From positions 1 through 32,637 of the IMG/VR virus record IMGVR_UViG_3300027777_000087: a stretch of 32,637 bases of DNA. One strand, written 5' to 3'. A model generated the notes under the pieces. It ran no database searches, was not told the DNA's origin, and saw only the letters and a program-made list of their open reading frames with translations. Position numbers and translations under genes: made by a program. Each line of letters starts with the position of its first letter. The stretch's first letter is position 1. Below are positions 1 to 15,293 of the stretch, in pieces. The DNA comes from a virus.

Positions 1-543
1 AAGACCGCCCACACAGTGGCCGAGGAATACATCCGCGATGATGTGCCAGTTCCCCCTGCTTTTGATTACATGAAACCCACGTTAGACGTGCTGAAAAGCA
101 TTGAAGGAGAAAAGTTATGCGAGGTGAAGTTGGGGCTGACCAAAGACCTAGAAGCATGCGATTTCAGTGCACCGAATGTATGGTGGCATGGGATAGCCGA
201 CTTGGTCATCATCAATCGGGAGAAGGGGATAGCCTATTCTTTGGACTACAAGACAAGCAAGAGTGCGAGGTATGCGGATGTGAAGCAACTGGACATCGTA
301 GCCTGTGGCCTGTTTGCCAAGTTCCCGGAGGTGCAGAAGGTGAAGTCCGGCCTTGTCTTCGTGGTGAGCAAGGAGTTTGTACGGGCTGTGCACCATAGAG
401 AAATGCGGGACAAGTACCTAGAGAAGCCAGCACAAGACGTTGCCCGTATCGAGGCAGCGGTAAAGAACGGGGTGTGGAACCCCATAAGCGGCCCACTGTG
501 CAAGTTCTGTGCGGTAAAGTCATGTGAGTACAACAGGAGTTAA
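1..543 (+). CDS. PD-(D/E)XK nuclease, Cas4/RecB-like (5' partial)
   Basis: The reading frame is open from base 1, so the N-terminus lies outside the window; a GTG at 16 is in frame but need not be the start. The visible part shows the core of a PD-(D/E)XK (RecB/Cas4-type) exonuclease: GIADLVI supplies the acidic residue, YSLDYKTSK the D-x-K pair, and QLDIVACGLF the following helix with a conserved Gln. The C-terminus CKFCAVKSCEYN has three closely spaced cysteines as in Fe-S-cluster members of this family (a fourth would lie upstream or be absent). Family members degrade or process DNA ends; in phages they sit with replication/recombination genes, as here, followed 2 bp later by an HNH gene and a helicase. 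Family assignment is fairly sure; the exact polarity and substrate are not known. Confidence 0.8.
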   Translation, partial: KTAHTVAEEYIRDDVPVPPAFDYMKPTLDVLKSIEGEKLCEVKLGLTKDLEACDFSAPNVWWHGIADLVIINREKGIAYSLDYKTSKSARYADVKQLDIVACGLFAKFPEVQKVKSGLVFVVSKEFVRAVHHREMRDKYLEKPAQDVARIEAAVKNGVWNPISGPLCKFCAVKSCEYNRS

Positions 544-545
544 TC

Positions 546-821
546 ATGCCCTACGTAAACAAACCCCGCCCCTACAAAAAGGAATACCAGCAACAGCTAG
601 ACCGAGGCGAAGAGAAGCCCCGCCTTGAACGCCAACGTGCCCGCACCGAGATGGACAAGAAGGGTGTTGACCGAGCCGGTAAGGACATCGACCATGCAAT
701 CCCACTATCCAAGGGGGGCACAAACGCTGCGGGTAATCTGAAGCTAAAAAGCCCAAGTGCCAACCGCTCTTTCTCCCGCAACTCAGACCACACGGTCAAA
801 GTCAATAAGCCCAAAAAATGA
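546..821 (+). CDS. Small HNH endonuclease-like protein
   Basis: A 91-aa basic protein. Residues about 48-75 contain DIDHAIPLSKGGTNAAGNL and a later SPSANRSF, matching the HNH pattern (D-H-x-x-P-L-x-x-G-G ... N-L ... N). The first His is in DH, and the usual terminal His is replaced by Asn (an HNN variant). The first half is charged and probably helical, rich in R, K, E and Q. Proteins of this size occur widely in phage replication regions and are annotated as HNH nucleases; activity is inferred. AGGAG lies 6 nt before the ATG, just inside the end of the nuclease gene. The stop overlaps the next start as ATGA, so the helicase is probably translationally coupled. Confidence 0.75.
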   Translation: MPYVNKPRPYKKEYQQQLDRGEEKPRLERQRARTEMDKKGVDRAGKDIDHAIPLSKGGTNAAGNLKLKSPSANRSFSRNSDHTVKVNKPKK

Positions 822-2206
822 ACCTATCAGAGTATGAGTGGCCCCGTCCACACGGGTTCACCCCGTTTGCGCATCAGAAGTTAACAGCCGAGTTCCTATT
901 AGCAAACCCCAAAGCTTTTTGCTTCAACGAGCAGGGTACAGGTAAGACAGCATCAGTGATTTGGGCCGTGGACTATCTCATGCAGATAGGGCTGGTGAAA
1001 CGAGTGTTAGTGGTGTGCCCCCTGTCCATCATGAAGTCAGCGTGGCAGGGTGACCTATTTAAGTTTGCGTTGCATCGCACCGTTGCGATAGCTTATGGCA
1101 GCGCAGATAAGCGCAAAGAAATCATCAGGGGCAATGCGGAGTTCGTCATCATCAACTTCGATGGGGTCGGCATCGTCAAGAAGGAAATCCTTGAAGGCGG
1201 CTTTGACCTTATTGTGGTGGACGAGGCATCCGCATACAAGAACGCACAGACGACACGCTGGAAAATCATGCGTGACCTGAACAAAGCCATTAAGGGCCTG
1301 TGGATGCTGACGGGTACACCCGCTGCGCAATCTCCTGTGGATGCTTACGGACTAGCTAAGTTGGTCAACCCCAAGGCTGTGTCGCCGTTCTTTGGGCAGT
1401 TCAAGGACACGGTGATGACCAAGGTGAGCATGTACCGCTGGGTTCCTAAGCCCAACGCCAAAGACATCGTGCACAAGATTCTTCAGCCAGCTATCCGGTT
1501 TGAGAAGAAGCAGTGCCTTGACCTACCTCCGGTTGTTTTTGCCGAGCGGGATGTGCGGATGTCGCCGCAACAGCTTAAGTACTACAACACCCTGAAGAAG
1601 CAGATGCTTATCGAAGCCGACGGGGAAGAAGTGAGCGCGGTCAACGCTGCGGTACAGATAAGCAAGCTACTGCAAATTGCCGGTGGTGCGGTGTATACCG
1701 ACAAGGGCGAAGTCATCGAGTTTGATGTAAGCAGTCGGCTGAACGTGGTGCAGGAAGTCATCGAAGAGTCGAGCCACAAGGTGCTGGTGTTCGTGCCCTT
1801 TACTCACACCATAGAACTGCTGGAGAAGCACCTAACCAAGAACGGCATAACGTGTGAAGTCATCAACGGAAGCGTCAGTGTCAACAACCGCTCCGACATC
1901 GTTAAGCGGTTCCAAGAACAACCCGCAACCAAGGTGTTGCTCATTCAACCACAAACCGCATCTCACGGGTTAACCCTGACTGCGGCGAACACAATCGTCT
2001 GGTACGCTCCCTGTACAAGCGTGGAAACCTACCTACAAGCTAACGCACGTATTGACCGTCCCGGTCAGGTCAACAACATGACCGTAGTGCACGTCACGGG
2101 CAGTCCGATTGAGGCCAAGATGTACCGCATGCTGCAAGGTAACATCGAAAACCACAGCAAAATCATAGACTTATACCGCCAAGAAATTTCTACAGAAACA
2201 CGTTGA
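818..2206 (+). CDS. SNF2/SF2-type DEAD-box DNA helicase
   Basis: A 462-aa superfamily 2 helicase/translocase. Motifs visible in order: Q-like region FTPFAHQ (15-20); Walker A NEQGTGKT (37-44); motif Ia VLVVCPLS (63-70); Walker B VVDEAS (133-138), so DEAS rather than DEAH; motif III LTGTPA (164-169); motif V QTASHGLTLTAANTIVWY; and motif VI QANARIDRPGQ (407-417), typical of SNF2 proteins. It would use ATP to move on or remodel duplex DNA during phage replication or recombination. It starts inside the HNH gene (ATGA overlap), and its stop codon lies within the -35 hexamer of the promoter for the following genes. The length is normal for stand-alone phage SNF2-like helicases. No specificity domain is visible. 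Confidence 0.88.
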   Translation: MNLSEYEWPRPHGFTPFAHQKLTAEFLLANPKAFCFNEQGTGKTASVIWAVDYLMQIGLVKRVLVVCPLSIMKSAWQGDLFKFALHRTVAIAYGSADKRKEIIRGNAEFVIINFDGVGIVKKEILEGGFDLIVVDEASAYKNAQTTRWKIMRDLNKAIKGLWMLTGTPAAQSPVDAYGLAKLVNPKAVSPFFGQFKDTVMTKVSMYRWVPKPNAKDIVHKILQPAIRFEKKQCLDLPPVVFAERDVRMSPQQLKYYNTLKKQMLIEADGEEVSAVNAAVQISKLLQIAGGAVYTDKGEVIEFDVSSRLNVVQEVIEESSHKVLVFVPFTHTIELLEKHLTKNGITCEVINGSVSVNNRSDIVKRFQEQPATKVLLIQPQTASHGLTLTAANTIVWYAPCTSVETYLQANARIDRPGQVNNMTVVHVTGSPIEAKMYRMLQGNIENHSKIIDLYRQEISTETR

Positions 2207-2230
2207 CAATGTCAAAAGTTATGGTATAGT
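2203..2230 (+). promoter_or_regulatory. Near-consensus sigma70 promoter with extended -10
   Basis: TTGACA at 2203-2208 is a perfect -35, followed after 16 bp by TATAGT at 2225-2230, one mismatch from TATAAT. TG at 2222-2223 gives an extended -10 (TGGTATAGT). The helicase stop codon TGA (2204-2206) is embedded in the -35. The expected start is at about 2236-2239, exactly where a long hairpin begins. This is the clearest bacterial-type promoter found in the window. It would let host RNA polymerase transcribe the lipoprotein cassette and downstream replication genes independently of the upstream nuclease/helicase genes. Confidence 0.75.
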
Positions 2231-2237
2231 TCTTTTC

Positions 2238-2300
2238 GTGGGGGTTGGTTTCGGCTTGTTGCTGTGATAGACGGAGCCGCTAGAAAAAGCCAGCCCCCAC
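2238..2300 (+). promoter_or_regulatory. Long 5'-terminal leader hairpin (structured 5' UTR)
   Basis: GTGGGGG (2238-2244) pairs with CCCCCAC (2294-2300), and the stem continues through 2251/2287 for 14 bp with two G-U pairs. An inner stem CGGCT (2252-2256) pairs with AGCCG (2275-2279), leaving a 3'-side bulge (2280-2286) and a loop of about 16-18 nt. There is no U-tract after the stem on the plus strand, so it is not a simple terminator. It lies at the predicted transcript 5' end and is followed by a 26-nt single-stranded stretch with AGGAG before the lipoprotein ATG. Possible roles are mRNA 5'-end protection, a regulatory element, or a small RNA. No known Rfam family was recognised. Confidence 0.6.
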
Positions 2301-2326
2301 ACCTTAACTAACCATAGGAGTAAACA

Positions 2327-2734
2327 ATGAAACGCACTATTGCAATCATCGCCGCCGCTTGCGCACTCGTCGCTTGTGGTAGCAAAGAAGTTAGCTTTGC
2401 CTCGTTGGAGGAAGCCAAGGGCACAGCGCGTGAGAACGCAATGTGGAACGCGCAACGCTATCGGCAGGAGAACATCCTGTACAAGGGCTGGGACATCATT
2501 GGCCGGGGTGACTCGACTCAGGACAACGCATGCCCCCAAGGTGATGGCTGGGCCACGCTGGAGTTTGTGAACCCTGAGAAGACCAAGCTCGTCAAGGTCA
2601 AGTGTTCTACTGTGTCGGGCAACACTGGCTGCTTAGAGGATGGCGACTTTAAGACCAAGCCGTTTGCGTCCGAGGACGGTCACTGCCAGCCCATCAATAA
2701 GGTTCCCTACCCACTGCCCAAGGTGGCGAAATGA
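2327..2734 (+). CDS. Predicted phage lipoprotein
   Basis: A 135-aa protein. The N-terminus has a KR charge pair, a hydrophobic stretch (IAIIAAACALVAC) and a lipobox LVAC at 14-17, so it should be exported, lipidated at Cys17 and cleaved to leave a mature protein starting CGSKEV. G at +2 does not signal inner-membrane retention, so outer-membrane sorting is expected. The mature part has four more cysteines (in NACPQG, VKCST, TGCLE and GHCQP) that could form two periplasmic disulfides. AGGAG is 6 nt upstream of the ATG. It is the first gene behind the strong promoter and leader hairpin and overlaps the next small membrane gene by ATGA. Phage lipoproteins can act in superinfection exclusion (for example T5 Llp); that role here is only a hypothesis. 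The family was not recognised. Confidence 0.8.
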   Translation: MKRTIAIIAAACALVACGSKEVSFASLEEAKGTARENAMWNAQRYRQENILYKGWDIIGRGDSTQDNACPQGDGWATLEFVNPEKTKLVKVKCSTVSGNTGCLEDGDFKTKPFASEDGHCQPINKVPYPLPKVAK

Positions 2735-2832
2735 TGGTACTGGACATTCTCATTGGCTTGGGCATGTTGGTGTTTGGCGCAGTGTGCTGGACAGCGGGTG
2801 TTACCTACGGTCGCCTGACCATCCGTAAATAA
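2731..2832 (+). CDS. 33-aa single-pass membrane peptide
   Basis: The ATG at 2731 overlaps the lipoprotein stop (ATGA). The product starts MMVLDILIGLGMLVFG, continues through AVCWTAGV and ends TYGRLTIRK. Roughly residues 3-25 form one hydrophobic membrane helix with a short positively charged C-terminal tail, suggesting the tail stays in the cytoplasm. It ends 19 nt before the next ATG and fills the otherwise empty gap. Its function is unknown. Its coupling to a lipoprotein makes an envelope-acting pair possible. The tight overlap, clean membrane profile and lack of alternative coding support it as real despite its length. Confidence 0.6.
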   Translation: MMVLDILIGLGMLVFGAVCWTAGVTYGRLTIRK

Positions 2833-2851
2833 TTTTCTACAGGAGTAAACA

Positions 2852-3277
2852 ATGGACGAAGCAGTTCAGGGGGAATCAGCCCCCGTTGATATGGACAAGC
2901 TAGCTGCCGTGTACATCAAAATACGCGACAAGCGGGCTACGGCCAAGAGAGAGTTTGACGAGAAAGACAAAGGGCTCGAAGAGCAGATGCAGTTGATCGC
3001 AGATGAGATGCTTGAAGCATGCAAGCGCATCGGAGCCGACAGCATCAAAACCCCACACGGCACAATCATGCGTTCAGTTAAGTCACGGTACTGGACAAAC
3101 GATTGGGATTCTATGTACACGTTCATCGAAGAACAGGGTGCATTTGGCCTACTGGAGAAACGACTTCATCAGACAAACATGAAGGACTTCCTTGCAGAGA
3201 ATCCCGACTTGTATCCCGTTGGTCTCAACGTGGAGAATTCTTACACCGTGGTAGTTAGACGTTCAAAGGAAAACTGA
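2852..3277 (+). CDS. Conserved phage protein, N-terminal coiled coil
   Basis: A 141-aa protein of unrecognised function. Residues about 14-62 are strongly charged and helical (KIRDKRATAKREFDEKDKGLEEQ then QLIADEML), a probable coiled coil. The remainder, with KTPHGTIMRSVKSRYW, FIEEQGAFGLLEKR and a beta-like ENSYTVVVRRSK end, looks like a small alpha/beta domain. The arrangement resembles Gp157-like or Gam-like phage proteins that sit by ssDNA-binding genes, but identity is not certain. Its initiation site (AGGAGTAAACAATG at 2841-2854) is identical to that of the lipoprotein gene. The next gene starts 2 nt after its stop. Confidence 0.7.
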   Translation: MDEAVQGESAPVDMDKLAAVYIKIRDKRATAKREFDEKDKGLEEQMQLIADEMLEACKRIGADSIKTPHGTIMRSVKSRYWTNDWDSMYTFIEEQGAFGLLEKRLHQTNMKDFLAENPDLYPVGLNVENSYTVVVRRSKEN

Positions 3278-3279
3278 AA

Positions 3280-3426
3280 ATGAGTAATGCGTTAAATGCA
3301 GATGAAATTCTGCGTGTTCAAGCTATGGAGATGGCAGTGAAACTCTGCCTAAAGGACTTCGACCAAGATGCGGTCTTGCTTGCTCAAGCAATCTATAAAT
3401 TTTTCAAAGGAGAAGTAAATGAGTAA
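3280..3426 (+). CDS. Small 48-aa hypothetical protein
   Basis: ATG at 3280, starting MSNALNADEILRVQ and ending FFKGEVNE; predicted almost wholly helical and amphipathic, with no signal or motif. It follows the previous stop by 2 nt and overlaps the start of the putative ssDNA-binding protein gene by 8 nt; the AGGAG that serves that gene lies in its last codons. AAAGGAAAAC upstream gives a plausible ribosome-binding site. The even fill between two real genes supports it. Function unknown; it could assist the ssDNA-binding protein. Confidence 0.6.
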   Translation: MSNALNADEILRVQAMEMAVKLCLKDFDQDAVLLAQAIYKFFKGEVNE

Positions 3427-4333
3427 TATCGCTCTGCTCAACCAAGACCTCCCCGACTTCCTGCAAACCGCTGGGGTCAGTGAGCTTACAAAGCAACTTG
3501 CTGGTCGTACCGGCGTCAAGCGCATCGTGCCTAAAAATGGCATCTTCCGCAAAGTAGTCGGCGGCGAAGAGATGGGTAAAGTCAAGGGTGACCTCAACAT
3601 CATCGTGGTCAACGCATCACCCAAAGTCGGGCGTATCTTCTACGTCAAGCAATGGAGTCCTGATGCCGAGCCGACCGCACCTGACTGCTTCTCCAATGAT
3701 GGCACTGCGCCTGATGCTGGTTCGGCGAATCCCCAAGCTGACCGCTGCGATAGCTGCCAGCAGAACATCAAGGGTTCGGGCATGGGCAACTCCAAGGCAT
3801 GCCGCTACTCGCGCCGCATTGCTGTGACGCTGGAAGAGGACTTTGGTACTTCGCTTGAGGGCGAGGTCTATCAGATGAACTTGGCTTCCAAGTCGCTGTT
3901 CGGTGATAGCGTCGGTGACAACACCCATCCGTTTGAGAGCTACACCAAGTACCTTGCTAACAACGGCAAGAGCTTGGACTACGTGGTTACACAGATGAGC
4001 TTCAACGAGGACAACGACAACCAGTCGGTGTTGTTTACCCCTGTGCGGTTCATCAACAAGCATGAGCATGGTGTTACGAGCAAATTGGCAGCAGACCCTG
4101 TGGTGCAGAAGATGGTCACCATGACCCCGTATCAAGCCGACGCATCAGCCCGTGCACCCCGACTGGAAGCGCCAGTACGTGTAGCTGAGCCACCGAAAGC
4201 CCAAGCCCCGGCTAAGGATGAACCGCCCTTTGAGGAACCAAAGAAGCGCGAGTCCAAGAAAGCAGCCGAGCCGGTTGCCGCAGTCAAAAAGTCCTTGGAT
4301 TCTGTAGTGGCAGCTTGGACTGACGAGGAATAA
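3419..4333 (+). CDS. Putative phage single-stranded DNA-binding protein
   Basis: 304 aa. Residues about 60-240 form a beta-rich core (VKGDLNIIVVNASPKVGRIFY, RRIAVTLEEDF, YVVTQMSFN, SVLFTPVRFI). A cysteine cluster (CFSN, then DRCDSCQQN and KACRYS) may bind a metal or stabilise the fold. Residues about 245-295 are a Pro/Ala/Lys-rich flexible tail, and the protein ends in an acidic aromatic tip AAWTDEE, the hallmark of SSB-type tails that recruit replication partners (as in E. coli SSB and T7 gp2.5). Placement between replication genes supports this. The OB fold itself is not proven by sequence, so the call rests on tail and context. Its start has AGGAG 6 nt upstream within the preceding gene. 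Confidence 0.6.
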   Translation: MSNIALLNQDLPDFLQTAGVSELTKQLAGRTGVKRIVPKNGIFRKVVGGEEMGKVKGDLNIIVVNASPKVGRIFYVKQWSPDAEPTAPDCFSNDGTAPDAGSANPQADRCDSCQQNIKGSGMGNSKACRYSRRIAVTLEEDFGTSLEGEVYQMNLASKSLFGDSVGDNTHPFESYTKYLANNGKSLDYVVTQMSFNEDNDNQSVLFTPVRFINKHEHGVTSKLAADPVVQKMVTMTPYQADASARAPRLEAPVRVAEPPKAQAPAKDEPPFEEPKKRESKKAAEPVAAVKKSLDSVVAAWTDEE

Positions 4334-4336
4334 AGC

Positions 4337-4576
4337 ATGAGTTATGGTTACAGCCAAAGATTAGTGGACGCCAACAAAGGGGCCGACGCTAAATCTTTGG
4401 GCGTAACCTTGGGTCGCCTATGTATCAAGCATGGGGTGCCTGTTAGTGAGGTAGCGAGATACCTGAACGTAAGTCGGATGACGGTTTACAACTGGTTTTG
4501 GGGAGTAACTACCCCCACCGCTTCCATGAACAACAGCCTCTTTAGTTACATAGAAAAGCTCAAGAAGCGCAAATAG
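4337..4576 (+). CDS. Small helix-turn-helix DNA-binding protein
   Basis: 79 aa. The segment GVPVSEVARYLNVSRMTVYNWFWG fits a helix-turn-helix: first helix VSEVARYL, turn NVS, recognition helix RMTVYNWFWG. The N-terminal part (TLGRLCIKHG) adds a preceding helix, as in XRE/Cro or transposase-like HTH domains. A basic C-terminus (IEKLKKRK) could add DNA contacts. It could be a transcription regulator of the replication block or a replication accessory. GAGGA lies 8 nt before the ATG, in the end of the putative SSB gene. The primase-helicase follows 3 nt after the stop. Confidence 0.75.
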   Translation: MSYGYSQRLVDANKGADAKSLGVTLGRLCIKHGVPVSEVARYLNVSRMTVYNWFWGVTTPTASMNNSLFSYIEKLKKRK

Positions 4577-4579
4577 TAC

Positions 4580-7432
4580 ATGTCCAACTTCGACTTGCTG
4601 GATGCGGTTCTTCCCGTAGGGGGAAGGTACTGCGTGTTAGGGATTGGTAGGTACGTAGACCAGCAATTTGCAGACACACGAGAAGAGGTTGACAAGCTAG
4701 TTGAGAAGTTTGTAGAGCGCAAAGTTGATGTGTATTTTGGGTGCGCCAAGTACGGCCCCCTGAACAACCGCACACACGAGAACGCCACTTACTTCCGCGC
4801 ACTGTGGATGGATATTGACTGCGGCCCCACGAAGGCCGAGCCCGATGAAAAGGGCAGGGTCAAGGGTTACATCGACCAGCAAACTGGGCTTGTTGAGTTT
4901 CAGAAGTTCTGCAAGGTTGTCGGCCTACCAAGGCCAATCCTAGTGAGTTCCGGTTACGGGATTCATGCCTACTGGCTGCTTGAAGAAACGGTATCCCGCG
5001 CAGAGTGGGAACCGCTATCGGGTCGGCTACGTGAGTTGTGTGTAGAGAAGAGTCTCATCGTTGATTCGTCGGTGTTTGAAGCATCACGAGTCCTACGTAT
5101 CCCCGGCACATACAACTTCAAGAACGAAGAGCCAATGCCTGTAGAGGTGTTGAACTCCGATACTGTGCGCATCCCGTATGCGCAGATGAAAGAGTTGCTG
5201 GGCGCACCTGACCCCAAGCCTGAGAAGCCTGACTTCATTCCAAGCTCTATGAGCCCGATGATGGAAGCGTTGATGGCAAACAAGGTCAAGCGGTTCAAAA
5301 CCATCATGATGAAGTCGGCCAAGGGCGAAGGCTGTAACCAACTGATTCATTGCTTTGAGAATCAAGCAACCCTTGAGGAACCACTGTGGCGTTCAGCCTT
5401 GTCGATTGCTGCGTTCTGCGTAGACAAAGACAGTGCTACCAAGAAGATGTCAGACCAGTATCCCGGCTACGACCCTGACGAGGTTGAAGTCAAGGTACAC
5501 AATCTGCTGACCAAGGGTGGGCCGCACCACTGCACTACGTTTGAGAAACAGAACCCCGGCGGGTGCGATGGCTGTGCGCACAAGGGCAAAATTAAATCCC
5601 CGATTGTGCTGGGGACAGAGATAGAGGAAGCCGACGATGAAGACAATGAAGTGGTTGTTGAGGTTGAAGAGGGTAAGCAGGTAACCGTAAACATACCTGA
5701 GTATCCATTCCCATTTTTTCGTGGGAAAAACGGCGGGGTTTATAGACGCGCCGACGATGAAGAAACAGACCCTTTGCTGGTCTATGAACATGATTTTTAC
5801 GTGGTTAAACGTATGCGTGACCCTCAAGCGGGCGAAGTCATATTGTTTAGGCTGCACCTGCCACACGATGGCATCAGAGAATTTTCCATATCCACCGCAG
5901 CTATATCGTCCAAAGACGAGTTGCGCAAAGCACTGGCCCAGCAAGGAGTCATGGCCCACCACAAGCAGTACGAGAACCTCGCTGTCTACGTGGTGACTTT
6001 TGTTAAGAACATGCAGTACACAAAGAAAGCGGACATTATGAGAACACAATTTGGTTGGGTAGAGAACGATAGCAAGTTCATCATGGGCGACAAAGAGATT
6101 ACCAAGGACGGTACGTTCTACAGCCCACCGTCAGAGGCAACGGAGTTCTTCGCCGAGAAGATTCACGCCAAGGGCACTATGGAGAAGTGGAAGGAGGTGT
6201 TCAACCTGTACGCCCTGCCGGGGATGGAGCCGCATGCATTTGCTGCCCTCACTGCGTTCGGTTCGCCGCTGATGAAATTCACGGGTTTGGATGGGGCAAT
6301 CATCAACGTCATCTATGAGATGGCAGGGTCGGGGAAGTCCACCATTCTGCGTATGTGCAACAGTGTGTATGGCCAACCTAAAGAACTGATGGCGATTGAG
6401 AAGGACACGTTGAACGCCAAGATGCAGCAGCTTGGGGTGATGAACAACCTGCCCAACACCATCGACGAGATTACCAACATGACGAGCGCGGAGTTCTCCG
6501 ACTTGGCCTACGGCATCAGCCACGGGCGGGGCAAGAACCGGATGCGGGGCAACGTCAATGGTCTACGCCTCAACAACACCTCATGGAACAACATGACCTT
6601 GGCCTCGGCGAATTGCAGCTTCTACGAGAAGCTGGGTGAGTTGAAGAACACACCGGACGGTGAGTCTGTGCGTCTGCTGGAGTACAAGATTGAGCCCAAC
6701 GACGTAATCGGCGTAGCTGTCGGCAAGCAGATGTTTGACCACCAACTGAACGAGAACTACGGCCACGCTGGAGAAATTTACCTCAGCTTCTTGGTCAACA
6801 ACCTTGAGTACTGCCAAGACCTAGTGCGCAAAGTACAGGCCCGCATCGACAAGGAAGTCCAGTTCACCTCACGGGAACGCTTTTGGTCTGCGCAGTCGGC
6901 ATGCAACATTGCCGGTGGCTTGATTGCCAAGGAGTTAGGACTGCACGACTACCACATGGGCAATGTGTACGGCTGGTTGAAGGGCATGCTGGGCGAGATG
7001 CGCGTCGATGTGAAGCCCCCTAGCCTGTCCCCCATCTCTACGCTGGGTGAGTTCATTAACGGGCACATCTACAACACGCTGGTGGTCAACGGGGAAGTCG
7101 ATTCTCGAAGTAACCTGTCGGCGCTGCCGACGCTGGAGCCACGAGGGGAGTTGCTCATACGCTACGAACCGGACACCAAGCACCTCTACATCTCGGCCAA
7201 GCAGTTCAAGGGTTTCTGCGTCAAGCAGCAGACGGGCTACAAGGAGCTACTGAGGAAGCTGACCGACCTAGGGATTTTCCTAGAGGCTACCAACAAGCGC
7301 ATGTCCAAGGGCATGAAGATTGTGTCCCCTGCTGTGCGCGTTTTGAAGTTCGACACTTCTGCCGACGAGACCCTACGGGTAGAAGCCATATTGGGCACAG
7401 ATGAAAATCGAGACAGTAGCGTACAGAGTTGA
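4580..7432 (+). CDS. Primase-helicase: AEP-like primase fused to DUF927-type helicase
   Basis: 950 aa, the main replication protein of the window. Residues about 1-210 look like an archaeo-eukaryotic-type primase: WMDIDCG (76-82) supplies the D-x-D metal site and SSGYGIHAYW (123-132, His129) the second motif, with SRVLRIPGTYNFK (169-181) completing the core. A His/Cys cluster HHC...CDGC (316-332) may bind zinc, followed by an acidic linker (347-365). Residues about 375-900 match a DUF927-like helicase: FGWVENDSKFIMGDKEI (491-507), Walker A MAGSGKST (581-588), Walker B TIDE (627-630) and GRGKNRMRG (649-657). It should prime and unwind DNA at the fork; no polymerase is in the window. The start has only a weak ribosome-binding site 3 nt after the HTH gene, so coupling is likely. 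Confidence 0.85.
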   Translation: MSNFDLLDAVLPVGGRYCVLGIGRYVDQQFADTREEVDKLVEKFVERKVDVYFGCAKYGPLNNRTHENATYFRALWMDIDCGPTKAEPDEKGRVKGYIDQQTGLVEFQKFCKVVGLPRPILVSSGYGIHAYWLLEETVSRAEWEPLSGRLRELCVEKSLIVDSSVFEASRVLRIPGTYNFKNEEPMPVEVLNSDTVRIPYAQMKELLGAPDPKPEKPDFIPSSMSPMMEALMANKVKRFKTIMMKSAKGEGCNQLIHCFENQATLEEPLWRSALSIAAFCVDKDSATKKMSDQYPGYDPDEVEVKVHNLLTKGGPHHCTTFEKQNPGGCDGCAHKGKIKSPIVLGTEIEEADDEDNEVVVEVEEGKQVTVNIPEYPFPFFRGKNGGVYRRADDEETDPLLVYEHDFYVVKRMRDPQAGEVILFRLHLPHDGIREFSISTAAISSKDELRKALAQQGVMAHHKQYENLAVYVVTFVKNMQYTKKADIMRTQFGWVENDSKFIMGDKEITKDGTFYSPPSEATEFFAEKIHAKGTMEKWKEVFNLYALPGMEPHAFAALTAFGSPLMKFTGLDGAIINVIYEMAGSGKSTILRMCNSVYGQPKELMAIEKDTLNAKMQQLGVMNNLPNTIDEITNMTSAEFSDLAYGISHGRGKNRMRGNVNGLRLNNTSWNNMTLASANCSFYEKLGELKNTPDGESVRLLEYKIEPNDVIGVAVGKQMFDHQLNENYGHAGEIYLSFLVNNLEYCQDLVRKVQARIDKEVQFTSRERFWSAQSACNIAGGLIAKELGLHDYHMGNVYGWLKGMLGEMRVDVKPPSLSPISTLGEFINGHIYNTLVVNGEVDSRSNLSALPTLEPRGELLIRYEPDTKHLYISAKQFKGFCVKQQTGYKELLRKLTDLGIFLEATNKRMSKGMKIVSPAVRVLKFDTSADETLRVEAILGTDENRDSSVQS

Positions 7433-7595
7433 CTGGTCCAAGTTCCGCAAGGGCTATTCATTTTTCATCCCCTGCATCGACCACAAGGCGGCGCGGGCTA
7501 CGTTGGCTGTAGTCACAAAGCGGCTGAAGATAACCACCATCACCAAGGTGGTCATCATGGATGGAGTGAAGGGCTTGCGGGTCTGGAGGACTTGA
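7401..7595 (+). CDS. Small 64-aa conserved-type phage protein
   Basis: It overlaps the 3' end of the primase-helicase gene by 32 nt in another frame. The product has KGYSFFIPCIDHKAARATLAVVTKRLKI followed by a beta strand and the ending KGLRVWRT. This alpha/beta pattern (W/F-x-P-C, basic helix, VVIxxGVKGLRVWR) is common in small phage proteins of unknown function. It is the last gene of the plus-strand block, ending 48 nt before the terminator stem. Ribosome-binding site weak, so translation probably depends on coupling. Confidence 0.65.
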   Translation: MKIETVAYRVDWSKFRKGYSFFIPCIDHKAARATLAVVTKRLKITTITKVVIMDGVKGLRVWRT

Positions 7596-7642
7596 GCTAC
7601 ACTGATAGCGTTTGCTCCTCCTTGGAAGTGGTACTTCCCTTA

Positions 7643-7676
7643 CCCCCGGCCAAAAACCGGGGGTTTTTTATTTTTT
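7643..7676 (+). terminator. Rho-independent terminator ending the plus-strand block
   Basis: CCCCCGG (7643-7649), loop CCAAAAA (7650-7656), CCGGGGG (7657-7663), then TTTTTTATTTTTT (7664-7676). The stem is a perfect 7 bp, all G-C, with a strong U-tract. A second small hairpin, GGAAGT/ACTTCC at 7624-7638, precedes it. The U-tract overlaps the stop codon (7668-7670) of the convergent giant late gene. On the minus strand the stem is not followed by a T-run, so it should stop plus-strand transcripts only. Confidence 0.9.
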
Positions 7677-10600
7677 GCGCCCTTTTGCCTCGGCTTCGTC
7701 GGCAGCTATCCTAGACGGCATTACCACTTCAGAGAACAACCCTACATTTTTCTTAGTAGGCACAAACCCTTGCCAAGCTATGCCGCGTTGTTCTGCGCGT
7801 TTTTTCAACGAGTCAATTATGTTTTCCGCATCAATTCCGTACGTTGGGTAGCGCCCGTTGAAGTCAATTATCTTGTCAAGGTACTTGTCGTAGCCATCAA
7901 AATTTTCATTCCTGTACTCACGGTCTAGGTTGTTCAAAAGTTGGGTGCGCTCGTTGAGGATGCGCTTCTCCAAACCAATCACTTTGAAGTTTACGTATTG
8001 CGTGTTAGTCAGCAGGTCTGACCGGAAGCCAACTGATTGCCCAATCAACAGTCCGGTATTGAAAGAGTCTTTGGACAAGAGTTCCGCGCCCTTGTTGTCC
8101 TTGGCCCCTTGGGTAGCTAGTTCGTGCGCGTTGACAAAGTTGCGGAACCCAGCGGGGACCCACTTCTTTACCGCCTTAGCGTAGTCTCCTTGCATAGCGG
8201 CATCCGCACCATCGGCTACAGACAAAATCATGTTTGCTGCGGGACCAGCTTTTTCCAAGGCAATAGCAGTTGCACTTTCCCGTAAGGTAGCTGTCTCTTT
8301 TGTATCTCTAAGCCAAAGGTTGTCTAGGCTGGTGCGCCCTGCAATGTCCAGTCCGGTAATGGCATTTGCAAGCCCACGATCAACCAGCGTGGACAATTTG
8401 ACCCCACCAATCTGTACTTCGCCAAGCAGGTCATCTAGGCACTTGGTACGGAACCAAAACCCAAAATCCATGTCCCGTACTTCTTCAGGCCAATCGTCGT
8501 CCTTCATCTGCCCCCATGCAGCACCCAGCATGCCCATGACGGTGCTAAATAACGGGAGACCCGCAGCGCCAGCAAGGATGAATGTAGTGCCGAGCGTGCC
8601 AAAGAACTTCTGCGCAGCCTCTGCCCGGTCTTTGCCGTTCATCGGAGCAACCATAGCTTTGAAATTGGTTACTAAGAACGATGTGGTGTGTAGCGGATAC
8701 ATCATAAATTGGGTCAGCACCTTGCCGCCAAGCCCATTCATAAACGCAGGTCGGTTGTACTCGCCGTAGTTACCTAGGGCTGCGTTGGTGTCCATAACTG
8801 CTTGGTCCACCGCACGACTGAAATTCCCATGTTCTTTCATGTTGAGGTTGAAAGAAGCCATGAACATGGCCTCACGGGATAGCTTCTCTGATGTATTCAT
8901 CAGACCACCAAACACCAGCGCATCCACAGTGCCCTTGGCCACCTTCATATTTGGCGACCGAAGCTTGTCGGTAGGGGTAGCCTTGTAGTTGAAGACCGCG
9001 CCCGCTTGTGTAGCCGAAAACAAGTCCATAGCCTCGGCAGCTTTGTACGCTCGGCGTTGCTGTGGAGTCAGCCCTTTTGCATACTCCATAGATGGCATAA
9101 CCCAAGACTTGGTTCCATCAGCATTGGTTTTGTAGATACCGACTTGGTTCCACACCTTGAGCATTCCAGCAATTTCTTTGGTTGCGTTAAATGCGCCGTA
9201 ACGAGCAAGTACAGGCAGGCCAGTTTGAAAAATGCTCAGTGGTTGCAACAGCGCAGATGACGCGCCGCTCAAGTAGTAGATGAACGAAGCCTTGTTGAGT
9301 CCGCTAACAACAGAGGATGCCGTGGATTGCTGCTTAGGTGCTATTGCCGCATCTACACGTTCCTTCATCTCATTCACAAAGGGCTCAAACTGCAACCGCC
9401 CCTGAATAGAGTCTTCTGCCGCCGACAGTGCATTGCGCAGCATGGGGGAGTACTTGATACGCGCCAACTGGGTTGCCATCTTTGCCGACGTATGCGCTAC
9501 GTTACGCAGCACGTCTACACGGAAACCAGCCACACCCTTACGATGAATAAACTGTTTACGGAAAGCTTGGTCGGGCATCGTTTCTAGGAATGCTTGATAA
9601 ATGGCATCCTTCAACTCGCTGTTTGCCTCGGCACTTCCCAAGTCCGTGTTGTCGATGGCGTTGAACACATCGGTGAGCATTTTGTTGCTACCTTGGGAAT
9701 ACGACTTTTCACGTAATGCACGGATGTTGTCGCCCATTTCAAAAGTGCTGTCTGCTACAAGCTCACCCAGCTTGTCGTCAATGCGTTTGTTCCATTGGGC
9801 TTCGGTCTCATTAGCCCCACGCAGTAGTTGGTCGGCAGCAAACTCCCGCGCCGCATTGTCCCGCTCTGCTGCGGTCTCGGCCATGAAGAATGTGCGAGTA
9901 GACCCAGACCCCATAGACAACCAGAAATCACCTTCACGCACAAGAGGGAAGTACGGATTGATTTTGCCGCCTTGCTCAAAGACCGCTCTGATTTTCTTCA
10001 TCAGATTCGCTTGGTCAACAAGGTTTGATGTGGAGCTAGCTACTTGGTCATCCAGCAACTTAGATAGGTACTTAGACAGCCCATCAAAGTGGTCACGGAT
10101 GCGTTTGTATATACGCTGCCCTTCAGGGCCAAGGTCTCTCCATAACTTATCCAGTTTTTCGCTACGCTCGGCAGTGTCAATGGTGCCGGGGTCTACTTCA
10201 GCAAGGGTAGCTACAGAGGTGATTTTGTCCAGCTTGGCCCGCAGTGTTGGGTCTGCACGGAAAGCCCGTTCGACTTCATTGGTCAGTTCCCCGGCGGTCT
10301 TGAGCAAGCCGTTGGTCATACCCGCCATCTTCTGCATCAGCTTGTACGTAGCCTGAAGCTGTGGCACTTCTTTCCGTACCCAGTCAACCAAGAACGACGT
10401 AGGAGGCAGCTTTACTAGCAGCCTGCGTTGCGCAGCCGTGGCCCGGTTCCACACTTGTTTCAAGATAGGGACTACCTTGCGGGGGTCTTGCGCCATCTGC
10501 GCTGCGGACACACCTTTAGCCGCCTCTTGAGCCTTGGCCGACTCTTCAAATTTGAACTCGGCCTTCTTTACCGCAAGGTCAACTTCCTTTTGACTGCGCA

Positions 10601-13600
10601 CAGCATCAGTGGTTTCCTCTTCAGAAACGTCAAAGTCTTCGTCGCCCTCTTCTTCGGTACGGCTAAAGCTTGTATCACCGCCCACCGCACGGTTGACGCG
10701 TTCACTTTCTACAAAGTTGCGGGCAGGAAGGATGTAGTTGGCAATCAGGTCGTTGTTGTTCAGCTTCAGGTCAAGGCCAATAGACCGTAACCCACGACGC
10801 ACAGCAGCAATAGCCCGTTGCACAATACCCATATTGGGTTTGGTAGCAGCTAAGTTAGCCAGTATTTCTTCAGCCGCCTCGGTTACATGTTTAGGGTTGC
10901 TAAAGTCAAGGCCATACTTTTCAGCCAAGGCTTGCATTTCTTTTGGGAAATCCCGTGCAACTTGTTCCAGTATGGGCTTCAGTCCTTTGCCAAAAACTCC
11001 ACGCAGGCCGTAATGTCCGAGTGCTTCATGCAGCAATGTCTCTACGACATCTTTTGTGCTGGTCATCTGGTCGGCAAAAATGTACACCTTGCCTTTGTGG
11101 AGCACGCCATTAGCCACGCCTGTAGCCCCACGCGCTACAGCTTGACGGTCAGCCTCTTGCAACTCAATTGGCACAGCCGGGTCATTGATGCTCTCTGCTA
11201 CCACCACTTCCGGTGCGTTCTTCCAACGTGCTTTGATGGTTTCAATGATTGCAGTGACCTTGGCCATGCCAATAGAAGGTCGTGGCTTTTTACCCTGCCG
11301 CATAAACCGGGGTTTGCTAGCCTGTGCAACGACAAAGTTGTAAGCCATCTCCAACCCAGCTTCATGGGCTTCTGATTCAGGGTCTTTGGCCGACTCGGTA
11401 ATAGTGTCCAAGTGGCGCTTTGCGTCCTTGCGGATGCCCAAAGGGAACCGAGGTGAGTCGATGATTTCCTGAAGTGCGCCAGCAATTTGCTTTTCAATGG
11501 GTGCAGTATCTACATCACCTGCACGGGCTTTGGCTGCTTCATCGCGCTCGGCAGCTTCGGCTGCGGCTACCTCTTCTGCCGTGGCCTTTTCTTCCTTAGC
11601 AATGCGGTCTTCCTCAGCCTTGCGCTTCTTCTCTTCTGCCTCAAAGTCCTTAACCTTTTTACGGTCGGCCTTTTCCTTTGCTTCTTCCGCAGCAATCTGT
11701 TCGCTAATGGACGGGCCAGTAGCTTTTGTGGGGAAAGCAGGTTTTTTGGCCCCAATGTAGCCCGCGTAGCCCGGCTCTTCGGGTGCTTCTGGCTCGATAG
11801 CAATATCAGCCTTGGGCTCTTCGGCCTTGGCTTTTTCTTCCGCAGCTTTGGCTTCAGCGTCAGCCTTGGCTTTTTCTTCCGCAGCTTGGTCTGCCTCTTG
11901 TTCCGCTTCTTCTGTAAGCTCGTCGACGCGCTCGTCTACTGCATCGTCTCTAGCGGTTTCAAGCTGGTCACGCATTATGTCGAGCACGTCATCAGCAGTC
12001 TGCTCACGGTCACTCAAGGCTTCTTGGATGTCACTGATGTCATCGAGTACGCCATTTTTCTCCAGCTTAAACATGAAGGGGCGTAGTTGTGCCTTGGTCT
12101 CAACCCGGTCACCGTCTTCAATGCGGCGCAGTGCCTCGCCAATAGGCCCAGCGTCTATTTCAGCTTCAGCCTTCTCCCGAAGAGCTTGTTCTTGCTTCTC
12201 GTCTTTTTCTCTCTCAGCCCTTGCGTCGGCTTTGGCTTTTGCTTCGGCATCGGCCTTGGCTTTTTCGCTAATGCGCAAGTTGTTGGCTTCTACGTTAGCC
12301 TTGGCTCTTGCCTCAAATTTTTCTTCAGCGGTAGGTTTTTTTGTTTCAACTACCGGAGCAGGGGTCTCCGCAACAGGCTCTTCAACCGCAGGGGTCTCCG
12401 CAACGGGTTCTTCAACTACCGGAGCAGGGGCAAGTTTTTCAGTGAGTTGGCGCTTTAGTTGGCCAAGTTCATCCAGACGCGTACGCTTAGTCGTACCCTT
12501 TTTAGGGAACCGTCCGTCTTTGCCGAGCAGGGTAGCCCCTTCTGTTTCGATGTCAGCAAGGTGCTGTTGGATTTCAGCCGGGTCGGTTGCAGCGGCAGCA
12601 GTAGCTACATCAACCTTGACGCCTTGGGCTACTGGGGCTGCGGGTGCTTTTTGTTCTTGCGTTTCTGTTTGCTTGGCTTCAGCTTTGGGGTTTAATGCCT
12701 CTGCTACTTTAGCGCCAAGGATTTGTTTTTCTTTGCCACTGGAGGACAACCAATTCTGCAAAGCACTTACAACAGGCGCTGGCAAATTAGGATACATAGC
12801 TGGCAATTCAGCAGCGGAAAATACGTTAGGTCGCCCATCGTATTTTTTGCCCTCCGCGTAAAATGTATTCCCAGTACCGTCGGATTTTCTTACAAGAAAT
12901 TGGGGTTTACCGCCATTGTTGCTAAGTTCAAATTGTGTATCGCCTTGGTTGAATTGGAGATGCGGGTCACCTGACCCAGCATCGCCTCTATAAGTAAAAG
13001 CGGGCGCAGGGGGTTTAACTACTGCGGCTGCGGGTGCTTTTTGTTTTTGCGTTTCTGTTTGCTGGGTTTGAGCGGCTTGAGCGCCACTTGGGGTTTTTTC
13101 TATTTTGGTTACTAAGTTGTCAATATTCCTACGTACAGTAGTCAACGTACTAGGCGTACCGTTTTCTGCTGGATTAAACCCCGCATTAATAGCATCTATA
13201 TGTGCGCCAGTAGAAGAAACACGCGGATGCGTGTCATTAGAACGTATATCTCCAATTTGTTTGTCAAGCGTTTGCGCAGCGTCACGCAATGCGGGGCTAC
13301 CATAGTAGTCCACCATTTCTTTGCCACCGGTTTTATTTATCCACCCATCATTGCCAATACCAAAAAATGGATACCATTTACCAGCAGGAACATCAACTTT
13401 TCCACCGCTGCCTGTGCTTAAATAAAACGGTACTTGTACACCGTTTACATTTACTAATACAATTTTTCTTCCGTTGTAGTCGATGATGTTGCTTTCACCG
13501 GAACTACGTTGCAATGGTTGCCCTGCCCCCGCAAACGAAACTGTTTCGTACGGGATAGTTGTTAAACTAAGGTTGGTTCCTTCACTTAGTGCAGCGGGTT

Positions 13601-15293
13601 CAGGTGTTTTTCCTGCATCAGACACTCCAGCATTCGGTTCAACAGGAACCACTCCATCTCGTGCAGGTGTTTCAGGTCCTCCGGGGGCTTCTGCTCCGGG
13701 CTCACTAACCACGCTAGCGCGCTTTCGACTTGGCTTGGGCTTAGTTCCTGTAACATCTAGTGCTCCTTGCTCTTTTGCAAGAGCGTCGTTTTCAAGTTCA
13801 TCCGCAATCTGTTGGGTGGCCGTAGCATACGCTTGATTGGGCTCCATGCCAGCAGCAATGAGTTCTTGGGCACGGGTCTTTACGGCAGTGTCGGTTGGCC
13901 CTGCTGCCATCTTACGGTTACGCTCATCTTCCGCAGCTACTTCGTCTTCAGCAAGACGGGCTGCATCTTCTTCGTTTCCAATGACTTGCGCTAGCTCTTG
14001 CGTGCGTTTAGCAACGCGTTCTTGTCGAGCCTGTTGTGCTGCCGCAGGGGGTGGCGGTGGGGTTTGTGTTCCACCGGGAGGAGGTGGGGGGGCTTGTGTT
14101 CCGCCGGGAGGAGGTGGAGGAGCAGTGGCGGCTTCAGGGGTTTGGCGTCCTTGTAACAAACCAACAGTGCTACCCATACCAAAACCACCTAGGCCTGCTT
14201 GTGCAGCAGTTGCCCCCAAGCCCTGAGTCAAACTTTGCTCAGGGTTAACCATACGAGCAGCTATGTTCTGTACACCTTGACCGCCAACCTCTTCAACTAT
14301 TTCACCGGGGGACTCTTTCACTCCACCTACAACGGCTCCAGCAACACGGCCCAGCTTGCCTTTTTCTCCAGCAAGCGCACGCTCCATAGCCTGTGCACCG
14401 GGCAAGCGTTGAGCCAGCAAGGAAATGACCGCGCCCGCAACACCAGCGGCTCGGGCTTTGTTTATAGTTTGTTCTGCGGCCTGTTCTGGGGAAACGCCTT
14501 TGGCTATCAGTGCGTCATAGACCTGCTTGTAAGCACCAACACCTACGTCTGTACCTTGTTGTACTGCTCCAGTACCTACGGAAGCTGCTGCACCGCGTTT
14601 AACCGCCGACTCAGTAGCTTTCTTTACGGCTACACCAAGCGCCTTCTCAGCAGCTTGTTTTGCTGCCACAGTGGTTGCTGCTTGTGCGGCAACTTGCAAT
14701 GCCTTAACTTCCGCTGCTGCTGCTGGCCCTACTCCGGGTATGAATGCCGCAATTATGGACGGGATAGAAGCGGGGGCTTGCTCAGCTAAGAACGCACCCA
14801 ACTGCATGGGGTCAGTCCCAGATTCATAAAGCTGTGTTTTGAACGCCGCCCACTGCCCACCAGTCTTTTCTGCTTCTTGAACTTTCCTTGCAGTCTCGGC
14901 TTCACGACGTTTTAGCTCCGGGGACTTCAGCGTTTTCGCATAGTCCTGCATCTCTTTACCAACACCTTGCATTCCGGTTGTAGCAAAGTCCTTATCCTTG
15001 ATTGCACCTGTAGCCAACCCGTACAACTGACCGGGAAACTGAGCAAGTTGCCCAAGACCGGATATAGCACTAGCGCCTATGTCGGTAGCAGCTTCACCCC
15101 AAGTACGTTCGCCTTTTTTTGCGGGGGCAACGGCAGGAACGGCAGTTTTTTTGCCCCCGTCAAGTGCAGTTACGGTTTTACCAAAGTCTTGTTCAGCACG
15201 GGTTTGTACTGCGGCAGGAGTAATGTCATCAGGTGCGCCCTTGTAAACATGGGACGAACCGTCATCAAACGTAACGGTGATGTCTCGTGCCAT
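7668..15293 (-). CDS. Giant internal virion/ejection-type protein with HEALGH zincin motif
   Basis: 2541 aa. N-terminal FDDGSSHVYKGAP domain (1-40); Ala-rich hydrophobic helices (about 165-240); polyproline linkers (about 389-416); Gln/Pro linkers and two beta-rich segments (about 565-873); a long Lys/Glu/Ala coiled-coil region (about 960-1280); a metalloprotease-like HEALGHYG (1422-1429; His1422, Glu1423, His1427) with a possible third ligand in EAAEEILA (1472-1479); a conserved NPYFPLVREGDFWL patch (about 1778-1791); and a membrane-like hydrophobic stretch near 2231-2262. The architecture fits large multidomain virion proteins ejected with DNA (T7 gp16-like in role, but with no lytic transglycosylase seen) and polyvalent phage proteins. 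AAGGAG 5 nt before the ATG fixes the start. It is the last gene of the late operon and ends at the early terminator. Confidence 0.8.
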   Translation of the reverse strand: MARDITVTFDDGSSHVYKGAPDDITPAAVQTRAEQDFGKTVTALDGGKKTAVPAVAPAKKGERTWGEAATDIGASAISGLGQLAQFPGQLYGLATGAIKDKDFATTGMQGVGKEMQDYAKTLKSPELKRREAETARKVQEAEKTGGQWAAFKTQLYESGTDPMQLGAFLAEQAPASIPSIIAAFIPGVGPAAAAEVKALQVAAQAATTVAAKQAAEKALGVAVKKATESAVKRGAAASVGTGAVQQGTDVGVGAYKQVYDALIAKGVSPEQAAEQTINKARAAGVAGAVISLLAQRLPGAQAMERALAGEKGKLGRVAGAVVGGVKESPGEIVEEVGGQGVQNIAARMVNPEQSLTQGLGATAAQAGLGGFGMGSTVGLLQGRQTPEAATAPPPPPGGTQAPPPPPGGTQTPPPPPAAAQQARQERVAKRTQELAQVIGNEEDAARLAEDEVAAEDERNRKMAAGPTDTAVKTRAQELIAAGMEPNQAYATATQQIADELENDALAKEQGALDVTGTKPKPSRKRASVVSEPGAEAPGGPETPARDGVVPVEPNAGVSDAGKTPEPAALSEGTNLSLTTIPYETVSFAGAGQPLQRSSGESNIIDYNGRKIVLVNVNGVQVPFYLSTGSGGKVDVPAGKWYPFFGIGNDGWINKTGGKEMVDYYGSPALRDAAQTLDKQIGDIRSNDTHPRVSSTGAHIDAINAGFNPAENGTPSTLTTVRRNIDNLVTKIEKTPSGAQAAQTQQTETQKQKAPAAAVVKPPAPAFTYRGDAGSGDPHLQFNQGDTQFELSNNGGKPQFLVRKSDGTGNTFYAEGKKYDGRPNVFSAAELPAMYPNLPAPVVSALQNWLSSSGKEKQILGAKVAEALNPKAEAKQTETQEQKAPAAPVAQGVKVDVATAAAATDPAEIQQHLADIETEGATLLGKDGRFPKKGTTKRTRLDELGQLKRQLTEKLAPAPVVEEPVAETPAVEEPVAETPAPVVETKKPTAEEKFEARAKANVEANNLRISEKAKADAEAKAKADARAEREKDEKQEQALREKAEAEIDAGPIGEALRRIEDGDRVETKAQLRPFMFKLEKNGVLDDISDIQEALSDREQTADDVLDIMRDQLETARDDAVDERVDELTEEAEQEADQAAEEKAKADAEAKAAEEKAKAEEPKADIAIEPEAPEEPGYAGYIGAKKPAFPTKATGPSISEQIAAEEAKEKADRKKVKDFEAEEKKRKAEEDRIAKEEKATAEEVAAAEAAERDEAAKARAGDVDTAPIEKQIAGALQEIIDSPRFPLGIRKDAKRHLDTITESAKDPESEAHEAGLEMAYNFVVAQASKPRFMRQGKKPRPSIGMAKVTAIIETIKARWKNAPEVVVAESINDPAVPIELQEADRQAVARGATGVANGVLHKGKVYIFADQMTSTKDVVETLLHEALGHYGLRGVFGKGLKPILEQVARDFPKEMQALAEKYGLDFSNPKHVTEAAEEILANLAATKPNMGIVQRAIAAVRRGLRSIGLDLKLNNNDLIANYILPARNFVESERVNRAVGGDTSFSRTEEEGDEDFDVSEEETTDAVRSQKEVDLAVKKAEFKFEESAKAQEAAKGVSAAQMAQDPRKVVPILKQVWNRATAAQRRLLVKLPPTSFLVDWVRKEVPQLQATYKLMQKMAGMTNGLLKTAGELTNEVERAFRADPTLRAKLDKITSVATLAEVDPGTIDTAERSEKLDKLWRDLGPEGQRIYKRIRDHFDGLSKYLSKLLDDQVASSTSNLVDQANLMKKIRAVFEQGGKINPYFPLVREGDFWLSMGSGSTRTFFMAETAAERDNAAREFAADQLLRGANETEAQWNKRIDDKLGELVADSTFEMGDNIRALREKSYSQGSNKMLTDVFNAIDNTDLGSAEANSELKDAIYQAFLETMPDQAFRKQFIHRKGVAGFRVDVLRNVAHTSAKMATQLARIKYSPMLRNALSAAEDSIQGRLQFEPFVNEMKERVDAAIAPKQQSTASSVVSGLNKASFIYYLSGASSALLQPLSIFQTGLPVLARYGAFNATKEIAGMLKVWNQVGIYKTNADGTKSWVMPSMEYAKGLTPQQRRAYKAAEAMDLFSATQAGAVFNYKATPTDKLRSPNMKVAKGTVDALVFGGLMNTSEKLSREAMFMASFNLNMKEHGNFSRAVDQAVMDTNAALGNYGEYNRPAFMNGLGGKVLTQFMMYPLHTTSFLVTNFKAMVAPMNGKDRAEAAQKFFGTLGTTFILAGAAGLPLFSTVMGMLGAAWGQMKDDDWPEEVRDMDFGFWFRTKCLDDLLGEVQIGGVKLSTLVDRGLANAITGLDIAGRTSLDNLWLRDTKETATLRESATAIALEKAGPAANMILSVADGADAAMQGDYAKAVKKWVPAGFRNFVNAHELATQGAKDNKGAELLSKDSFNTGLLIGQSVGFRSDLLTNTQYVNFKVIGLEKRILNERTQLLNNLDREYRNENFDGYDKYLDKIIDFNGRYPTYGIDAENIIDSLKKRAEQRGIAWQGFVPTKKNVGLFSEVVMPSRIAADEAEAKGRKK
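11824..11887 (-). repeat. 25-bp direct repeats in coiled-coil coding region
   Basis: The same 25 bp occurs at 11824-11848 and 11863-11887 (offset 39 bp, 13 codons), coding AEEKAKA-type coiled-coil sequence in the giant virion protein. Related K-A-D-A-E-A-K units continue through about 12170-12310. This is likely replication-slippage expansion of a helical rod. Confidence 0.8.
12345..12430 (-). repeat. Tandem VAETPAVEEP linker repeats
   Basis: A 20-bp unit recurs exactly at 12345-12364 and 12411-12430, and an overlapping 17-bp unit at 12358-12374 and 12388-12404. They encode repeated EEPVAETPA(P)VVE, a proline/glutamate-rich flexible linker in the giant virion protein. Confidence 0.8.
12636..13063 (-). 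repeat. 38-bp direct repeats flanking an in-frame domain cassette
   Basis: Positions 12636-12673 and 13026-13063 match over 38 bp with one mismatch (12656 C versus 13046 T). They are offset by 390 bp, exactly 130 codons, and encode the linker QTETQ(K/E)QKAPAA in the giant protein. The DNA between them encodes one compact, beta-rich unit (FTYRGDAGSGDPHLQF... to NPKAEAK). The layout suggests duplication or insertion of a linker-bounded domain by recombination. Confidence 0.85.
14046..14126 (-). repeat. Polyproline GGTQ-PPPPP repeats
   Basis: Three runs of five prolines separated by GGTQA/GGTQT, residues about 389-416 of the giant protein. Adjacent DNA units are nearly identical. This is a stiff extended linker separating the N-terminal hydrophobic region from the charged middle part. 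Confidence 0.85.

Follow-up and report, generated by a model that had tools for sequence, protein, structure and literature searches.

The window analysed here is the whole of the IMG/VR virus record IMGVR_UViG_3300027777_000087 (32,637 nt), which stems from a freshwater phage. Exonuclease, HNH, helicase, lipoprotein-like and primase/helicase-like genes occupy the plus strand in the left part of the window, and the structural genes lie on the minus strand. The strongest plus-strand terminator (7642-7664) marks the end of a convergent transcription unit, and next to it the minus strand encodes a 2541-aa protein (7668-15293) with similarity to DarB-like antirestriction proteins (PHROG 10089, E 8e-47). 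No phage record was retrieved by blastn with positions 1-8000 of the window, and the best cultured relatives of the helicase are ~40% identical. The search for a host found none, the one match in a genome collection (L328) being, by eye, a chance match within coding sequence. PHROG and Pfam searches gave no match for the lipoprotein-like gene, and a blastn search with the hairpin that precedes it gave no match to E. coli, so that mimicry of an E. coli sequence was rejected. The features around the end of the helicase gene are summarized in Table 1.

Table 1. Features between the helicase and lipoprotein-like genes of the window.
Feature	Position	Strand	Remarks
Helicase ORF	818-2206	+	Stop TGA 2204-2206
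-35 box TTGACA	2203-2208	+	Overlaps helicase stop TGA 2204-2206; hexamer identical in 84/84 loci
Extended -10 TGGTATAGT	2222-2230	+	TATAGT 2225-2230, TG 2222-2223; 16-nt spacer
Predicted transcription start	2237-2239	+	From -10 distance; at stem foot
Type A RNA element, whole hairpin	2238-2300	+	z -6.14; model R1 88.8 bits
Outer stem P1, 5' strand	2238-2251	+	Pairs with 2287-2300; 96.5% of cells paired, 13 pairs, covarying
P2, 5' strand CGGC	2252-2255	+	Pairs with GCCG 2276-2279; invariant in 20/20 aligned
P3, 5' strand CTGT	2262-2265	+	Pairs with ACGG 2271-2274; pentaloop GATAG
P3, 3' strand ACGG	2271-2274	+	Pairs with CTGT 2262-2265
P2, 3' strand GCCG	2276-2279	+	Pairs with CGGC 2252-2255
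Conserved 3' bulge, CNNGNAN type	2280-2286	+	From alignments
Outer stem P1, 3' strand	2287-2300	+	Pairs with 2238-2251
Shine-Dalgarno-like AGGAG	2316-2320	+	Beyond hairpin; read from sequence
Lipoprotein-like 135-aa protein, first gene of the transcript	2327-2734	+	Signal and Cys by eye

An earlier, sequence-only reading of this region had placed a strong promoter at the end of the helicase gene, with the -35 box over the stop codon and an extended -10 box after 16 bp, and these coordinates hold; the promoter is of the sigma-70 type. The TTGACA-16-TATAGT promoter agrees with the consensus at 11 of 12 positions and is the sole site in the 32.6-kb window to reach at least 10/12, the remaining 12 of the 13 promoter-like sites scoring 9/12. 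A helicase-end promoter whose -35 box reads TTGACA and whose spacer is exactly 16 nt long was present in 84 of 84 related loci (slot 1), a set made up of 79 of the best 80 IMG/VR helicase matches (more exist) together with the window, L085, L141, L149 and L300, of which L149 is a repeat of the window's own sequence; L053 was left out as its gene end is missing. The scores of these promoters were 10/12 in 27 loci, 11/12 in 44 and 12/12 in 13, with a finder that takes the best of 70 positions and that gave at least 10/12 for shuffled regions in 44 of 1600 trials.

Folding confirmed the proposed 63-nt hairpin with a 14-bp outer stem at the expected +1 (MFE -33.3 kcal/mol), and 0 of 200 dinucleotide shuffles folded as well. 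On the minus strand the covariance model R1 gave the element 16.3 bits, as against 88.8 on the plus strand. If the promoter works as its sequence predicts, an early mRNA would begin directly with the element. The 5-bp inner stem of the sequence-only reading stands for the window, where the centroid structure contains CGGCU/AGCCG, but in the family as a whole four pairs only (CGGC/GCCG) are constant, and above them the family fold has a second 4-bp hairpin, CYGU-GAUNN-ACRG. As also proposed, the hairpin is not a terminator; a U-tract is absent after it (CCCCCACACCTTAAC), the terminator scan makes no call there, and an intrinsic terminator was rejected on these grounds. Nor did we find signs of a riboswitch or leader switch, there being no terminator near and AGGAG being unpaired in the fold of 2236-2330. 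The element had matched no RNA family known to the earlier reader, and in Rfam the window gave no match at the gathering threshold; with positions 2180-2340 and E<=5, two weak matches far under the cut-offs were obtained (viral microRNA and human lncRNA families). When the window and 22 loci with type A, B, C or kindred elements were searched with 4227 Rfam 15 families, none reached the gathering cut-off except a tRNA in L163, and neither ARAGORN nor Rfam found a tRNA in the window. A second structured RNA in the gap 3278-3418 was considered and rejected (z -1.29, nothing special).

The labels A, B and C, as well as types E and F, are our own naming. In three pattern scans of viral contigs, we identified 24 distinct IMG/VR sequences of type A, including that of the window. 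The first scan returned 39 stretches, 15 of them type A by reading, and the second 41 new loci with three type A elements (L300, L301 and L327). In the third scan the 20-nt core was left free, and of 73 new loci, 69 were scored for outer-stem pairing and 10 passed; nine of the ten had the type A core, the tenth (L348) being a chance match, and the remaining four loci were judged by eye not to be type A. Thirteen variants of the core were observed, every one of the form NUNNUGCYGUGAUNNACRGA. In alignment A5 (20 gap-free sequences) 97.9% of the cells are paired, and the outer stem covaries, with two-sided changes in seven pairs (24 cells). Compensatory change in the stem was the test that the earlier reader had set for a conserved pairing, and the element passes it. 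The covariation score of A5 was 0.266 compared with at most 0.145 when the alignment was slid, and 0 of 500 shuffles reached 0.266, although the shuffle counts overstate independence owing to the relatedness of the 24 sequences. Related sequences can exceed control (a), so that greater weight falls on the slide control. Four members with small insertions (L137, L138, L128 and L152) are omitted from A5; the earlier alignments A2 (15 sequences, including L137, L138 and L128) and A1 (13 sequences, including all four) agree with A5 on covariation. P2 is unproven by covariation because it never varies (20/20 sequences), and P3 has one changing pair, from U-G to C-G or U-A, which is still paired in 20/20. 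Model R1 gave members 74-89 bits and everything else at most 21.2 bits (259 sources). Type A is a real, undescribed family of small structured phage RNAs.

Type A was found in several kinds of position. It lies in the leader at +1 in the window, L141 and L300, just after a stop codon within operons in L158, L301, L327, L338 and L128, and at the 3' end in L137, between a 62-aa ORF (4060-4248, plus strand) and a convergent helicase gene ending at 4319. Tandem arrangements occur before type B in L138 and with type C in L360. Since in 16 of the 24 members the element stands no more than 60 nt behind an ORF on the same strand, most copies would be read within an mRNA. The genes downstream differ between loci, and as the ribosome-binding site is also free, a switch acting on the next gene is unsupported. 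A tie between the hairpin and the lipoprotein-like gene was likewise rejected because L141 and L300 carry type A without that gene and L085 has the gene behind a type B RNA. The lipoprotein-like gene itself was seen at 46 IMG/VR loci, in varied placement and often with structured RNAs adjacent.

Copy number was determined in 28 whole records, chosen for holding some element or as slot-1 relatives and none of them known to be complete. Every one of the 13 records that contain type A has it as a single copy, which is what is expected of any rare element in records picked for holding one; the several copies per genome typical of a repeat element (REP or MITE-like) were not seen in these 13. Type B was found in 14 records (once in 13, the other having a second weak match of 27.6 bits) and type C once in each of four. 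Type B was also present in five of the 13 A records, and the window holds type A only.

At slot 1, the promoter runs straight to the ribosome-binding site with no element in 47 of the 84 loci. The other 37 carry type C (22 loci), other hairpins (nine), type A (four) or type B (two), and in 31 of them the stem starts at index 7 after the -10 box, i.e. at the expected start. Fifteen loci share a near-identical promoter (a 29-base pattern with one base free); among these, type A was present in three (L141, L149 and L300), one other structured insert in L402 and L410, another in L404 and L406, and none in eight. L001, the helicase of which is 98% identical to that of the window, has no element. 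As the element is missing from 47 loci and replaced by other RNAs elsewhere, the hairpin is an exchangeable cassette; at this promoter the RNA element is optional and swappable, which suggests an interchangeable set of RNA parts among related phages. Swappable protein genes are well known in phage early regions, and phage-borne structured RNAs are already known as a kind. The new aspect is an exchangeable RNA slot at the transcription start site. In the open-licence papers searched, which give weak evidence of novelty, we found no description of these elements or of unrelated structured RNAs replacing each other at the start of a main early promoter.

Sharp swaps between near-identical flanks are what recombination would leave, and the elements lie at gene borders. 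They might therefore function as DNA, as inverted-repeat protein sites or recombination linkers between mosaic modules, or be mere passengers. We regard this as highly improbable, since the G-U pairs kept in the stem and the strand-specific model scores point to RNA, and a neutral insert would not retain a 20-nt core across unrelated neighbourhoods.

Our tentative preference, held with less than even confidence, is that type A works mainly as an autonomous small RNA domain rather than as a stabiliser in cis. The phage has one strong promoter of host type, and the cassette would start where transcription from it starts; owing to this placement the RNA would be made early and abundantly. The near-invariant core (P2, P3, the GAUNN loop and the 3' bulge; ~35 nt) may be the surface to which a factor of the host or phage binds. 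The RNA could be free after processing or act as the head of the mRNA, and would not serve to switch the gene that follows. The outer stem, which is GC-rich, would hold the core and, at +1, also shield the 5' end, a protection that is likely to be secondary.

The sequence-only reading had given protection of the 5' end as a possible role, and a 5'-terminal stem that bars RppH and RNase E could indeed lengthen the life of the early mRNA, the core being incidental or bound by a decay factor. However much they differ, the elements found behind this promoter share a stem that starts at about +1, and the placement in 31 of 37 loci is compatible with such a role in cis as well as with the favoured one. 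Base-paired 5' ends are cut more slowly by RNase E, and 5' stem-loops stabilise the ompA and papA mRNAs, according to the part of the source available (PMC3997798). Type A resembles the latter in its GC-rich stem from the inferred first base of the transcript, but differs by its sequence-conserved core and by its operon-internal and 3'-end copies; the 5'-terminal position of stabilising stem-loops is not shared by the family as a whole. Moreover, a plain stem would suffice for protection, yet the core is conserved beyond that need, and more than half of the slot-1 loci do without any element. Protection thus fits the stem at the expected +1 but not as the general role of the family, and we consider a purely stabilising function possible though not probable. 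It is the conserved core, the copies at the 3' end and in mid-operon and the loci without an element that lead us to favour the small RNA domain.

Of the other elements, type B (GGGAAAGCGGAUGC...GCAGCGAGUACCC) is a very common phage intergenic RNA; at least 120 stretches contain it, and each of the 120 listed (L167-L286, e.g. L182:3541-3610) has a single strict match. It has a loop-E-like frame, GAAAGC...GAGUA, and a hypervariable apical hairpin, and looser variants were observed beside the strict copy in L171, L188 and L202. Clustering of the genes that flank the listed type B copies gave 45 clusters for 96 downstream genes and 38 for 98 upstream genes, and in nearly all listed cases the element lies in sense, 1-14 nt past a same-strand stop codon. 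A same-strand stop within 60 nt was recorded for 175 of 191 type B rows compared with 1013 of 3939 random positions, and a start within 150 nt for 173 of 191, the 191 rows representing about 96 elements, nearly all counted twice. This position behind stop codons, which type A shares in the five operon-internal loci named above, would suit an intercistronic or leader processing element, the core of which is read by a host nuclease or phage factor that cuts or caps the polycistronic mRNA. Such a function is unlikely, given that presence varies at one and the same junction, that an element at +1 has nothing before it to be separated and that a single copy per genome is scant for a processing site of general use.

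Type C forms a junction that has two conserved loops; 16 of its 25 predicted pairs show two-sided changes (12 sequences). It was observed in L005-L026, L074, L078, L094, L182, L191 and L360, and is composed of a long outer stem, a loop GGGUUAGCGCC and a hairpin CACUGCUUUAUGUG, with strong covariation and, by eye, a possible AGCG/UGCU loop-loop pairing. A broader version of the favoured reading, which we put forward as speculation and hold to be rather unlikely as a whole, is that compact RNA modules (A, B, C and others) form a pool common to freshwater phages, are traded as alleles and act in trans early against changing host targets. Trading would take place where transcription from the main early promoter starts as well as at further gene junctions, with one copy of a few types per genome. 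The modules might act in the first minutes of infection, e.g. by decoying or inhibiting proteins of defence or RNA handling, and would then be the RNA counterpart of early anti-host protein cassettes. If trans-acting, they would add a new class to the tools that phages deploy against their hosts; if cis-acting, they would show phages fitting one mRNA with different RNA heads. In both cases the residues to mutate can be read from the alignments.

In its size (~64 nt) and its place immediately behind an early phage promoter, type A is similar to putL of phage HK022, and it might accordingly bind the host RNA polymerase as nascent RNA and cause terminators to be ignored, an effect that put RNA exerts through the beta' zinc-binding domain. 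As described in the available part of the source (PMC9378689), however, put RNA comprises two stem-loops in about 70 nt, whereas type A is one nested hairpin, a comparison of descriptions rather than of sequences. Readthrough of the 7642-7664 terminator would run antisense into the structural genes, and the type A copy in L137 has nothing downstream to read into. Antitermination of this kind is therefore very improbable. The manA and wcaG motifs of cyanophages are also phage-carried conserved structured RNAs known mainly from environmental sequence, but the part of the source available places them in leaders of recurring gene classes (PMC2864571), while no gene recurs downstream of type A; Rfam gave no match of manA (RF01745) to type A here. 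RNA anti-CRISPRs (Racrs) are alike in that phages carry them singly as small non-coding RNAs; they mimic CRISPR repeats, as far as the available portion of their description goes (PMC10651486), and type A shows no apparent mimicry of this kind. Phage tRNA arrays likewise contain different structured RNAs in tandem between genes, and in L163 a tRNA (Rfam, 44.8 bits) directly follows the type A element, but type A in the window is not a tRNA according to ARAGORN and Rfam. A GOLLD-like giant RNA, suspected from the tRNA in L163, was rejected as there was no Rfam match.

In 14 type A members the outer stem is longer (CAACACGC...CGTGTTGG, or a variant), and several of them run on into a tRNA-like fold or, in L360, into type C. 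In L360 the space that separates a terminator-like hairpin (2316-2335) from the next promoter-like site (2544-2571) is filled by the A and C unit, which looks like a free-standing RNA gene, a putative promoter of its own being assigned by eye. On the minus strand of L102, ~500 nt upstream of type C, several structured modules stand in tandem, apparently non-coding: framed hairpin, tRNA-like part, framed hairpin and type C. In L152, L157, L159, L163 and L233, GUGUUGG, the 3' strand of the longer A stem, has two possible partners, the upstream CCAACACG or the downstream tRNA-like acceptor strand CCAACA. The two folds are mutually exclusive and sit just upstream of terminase-like genes.
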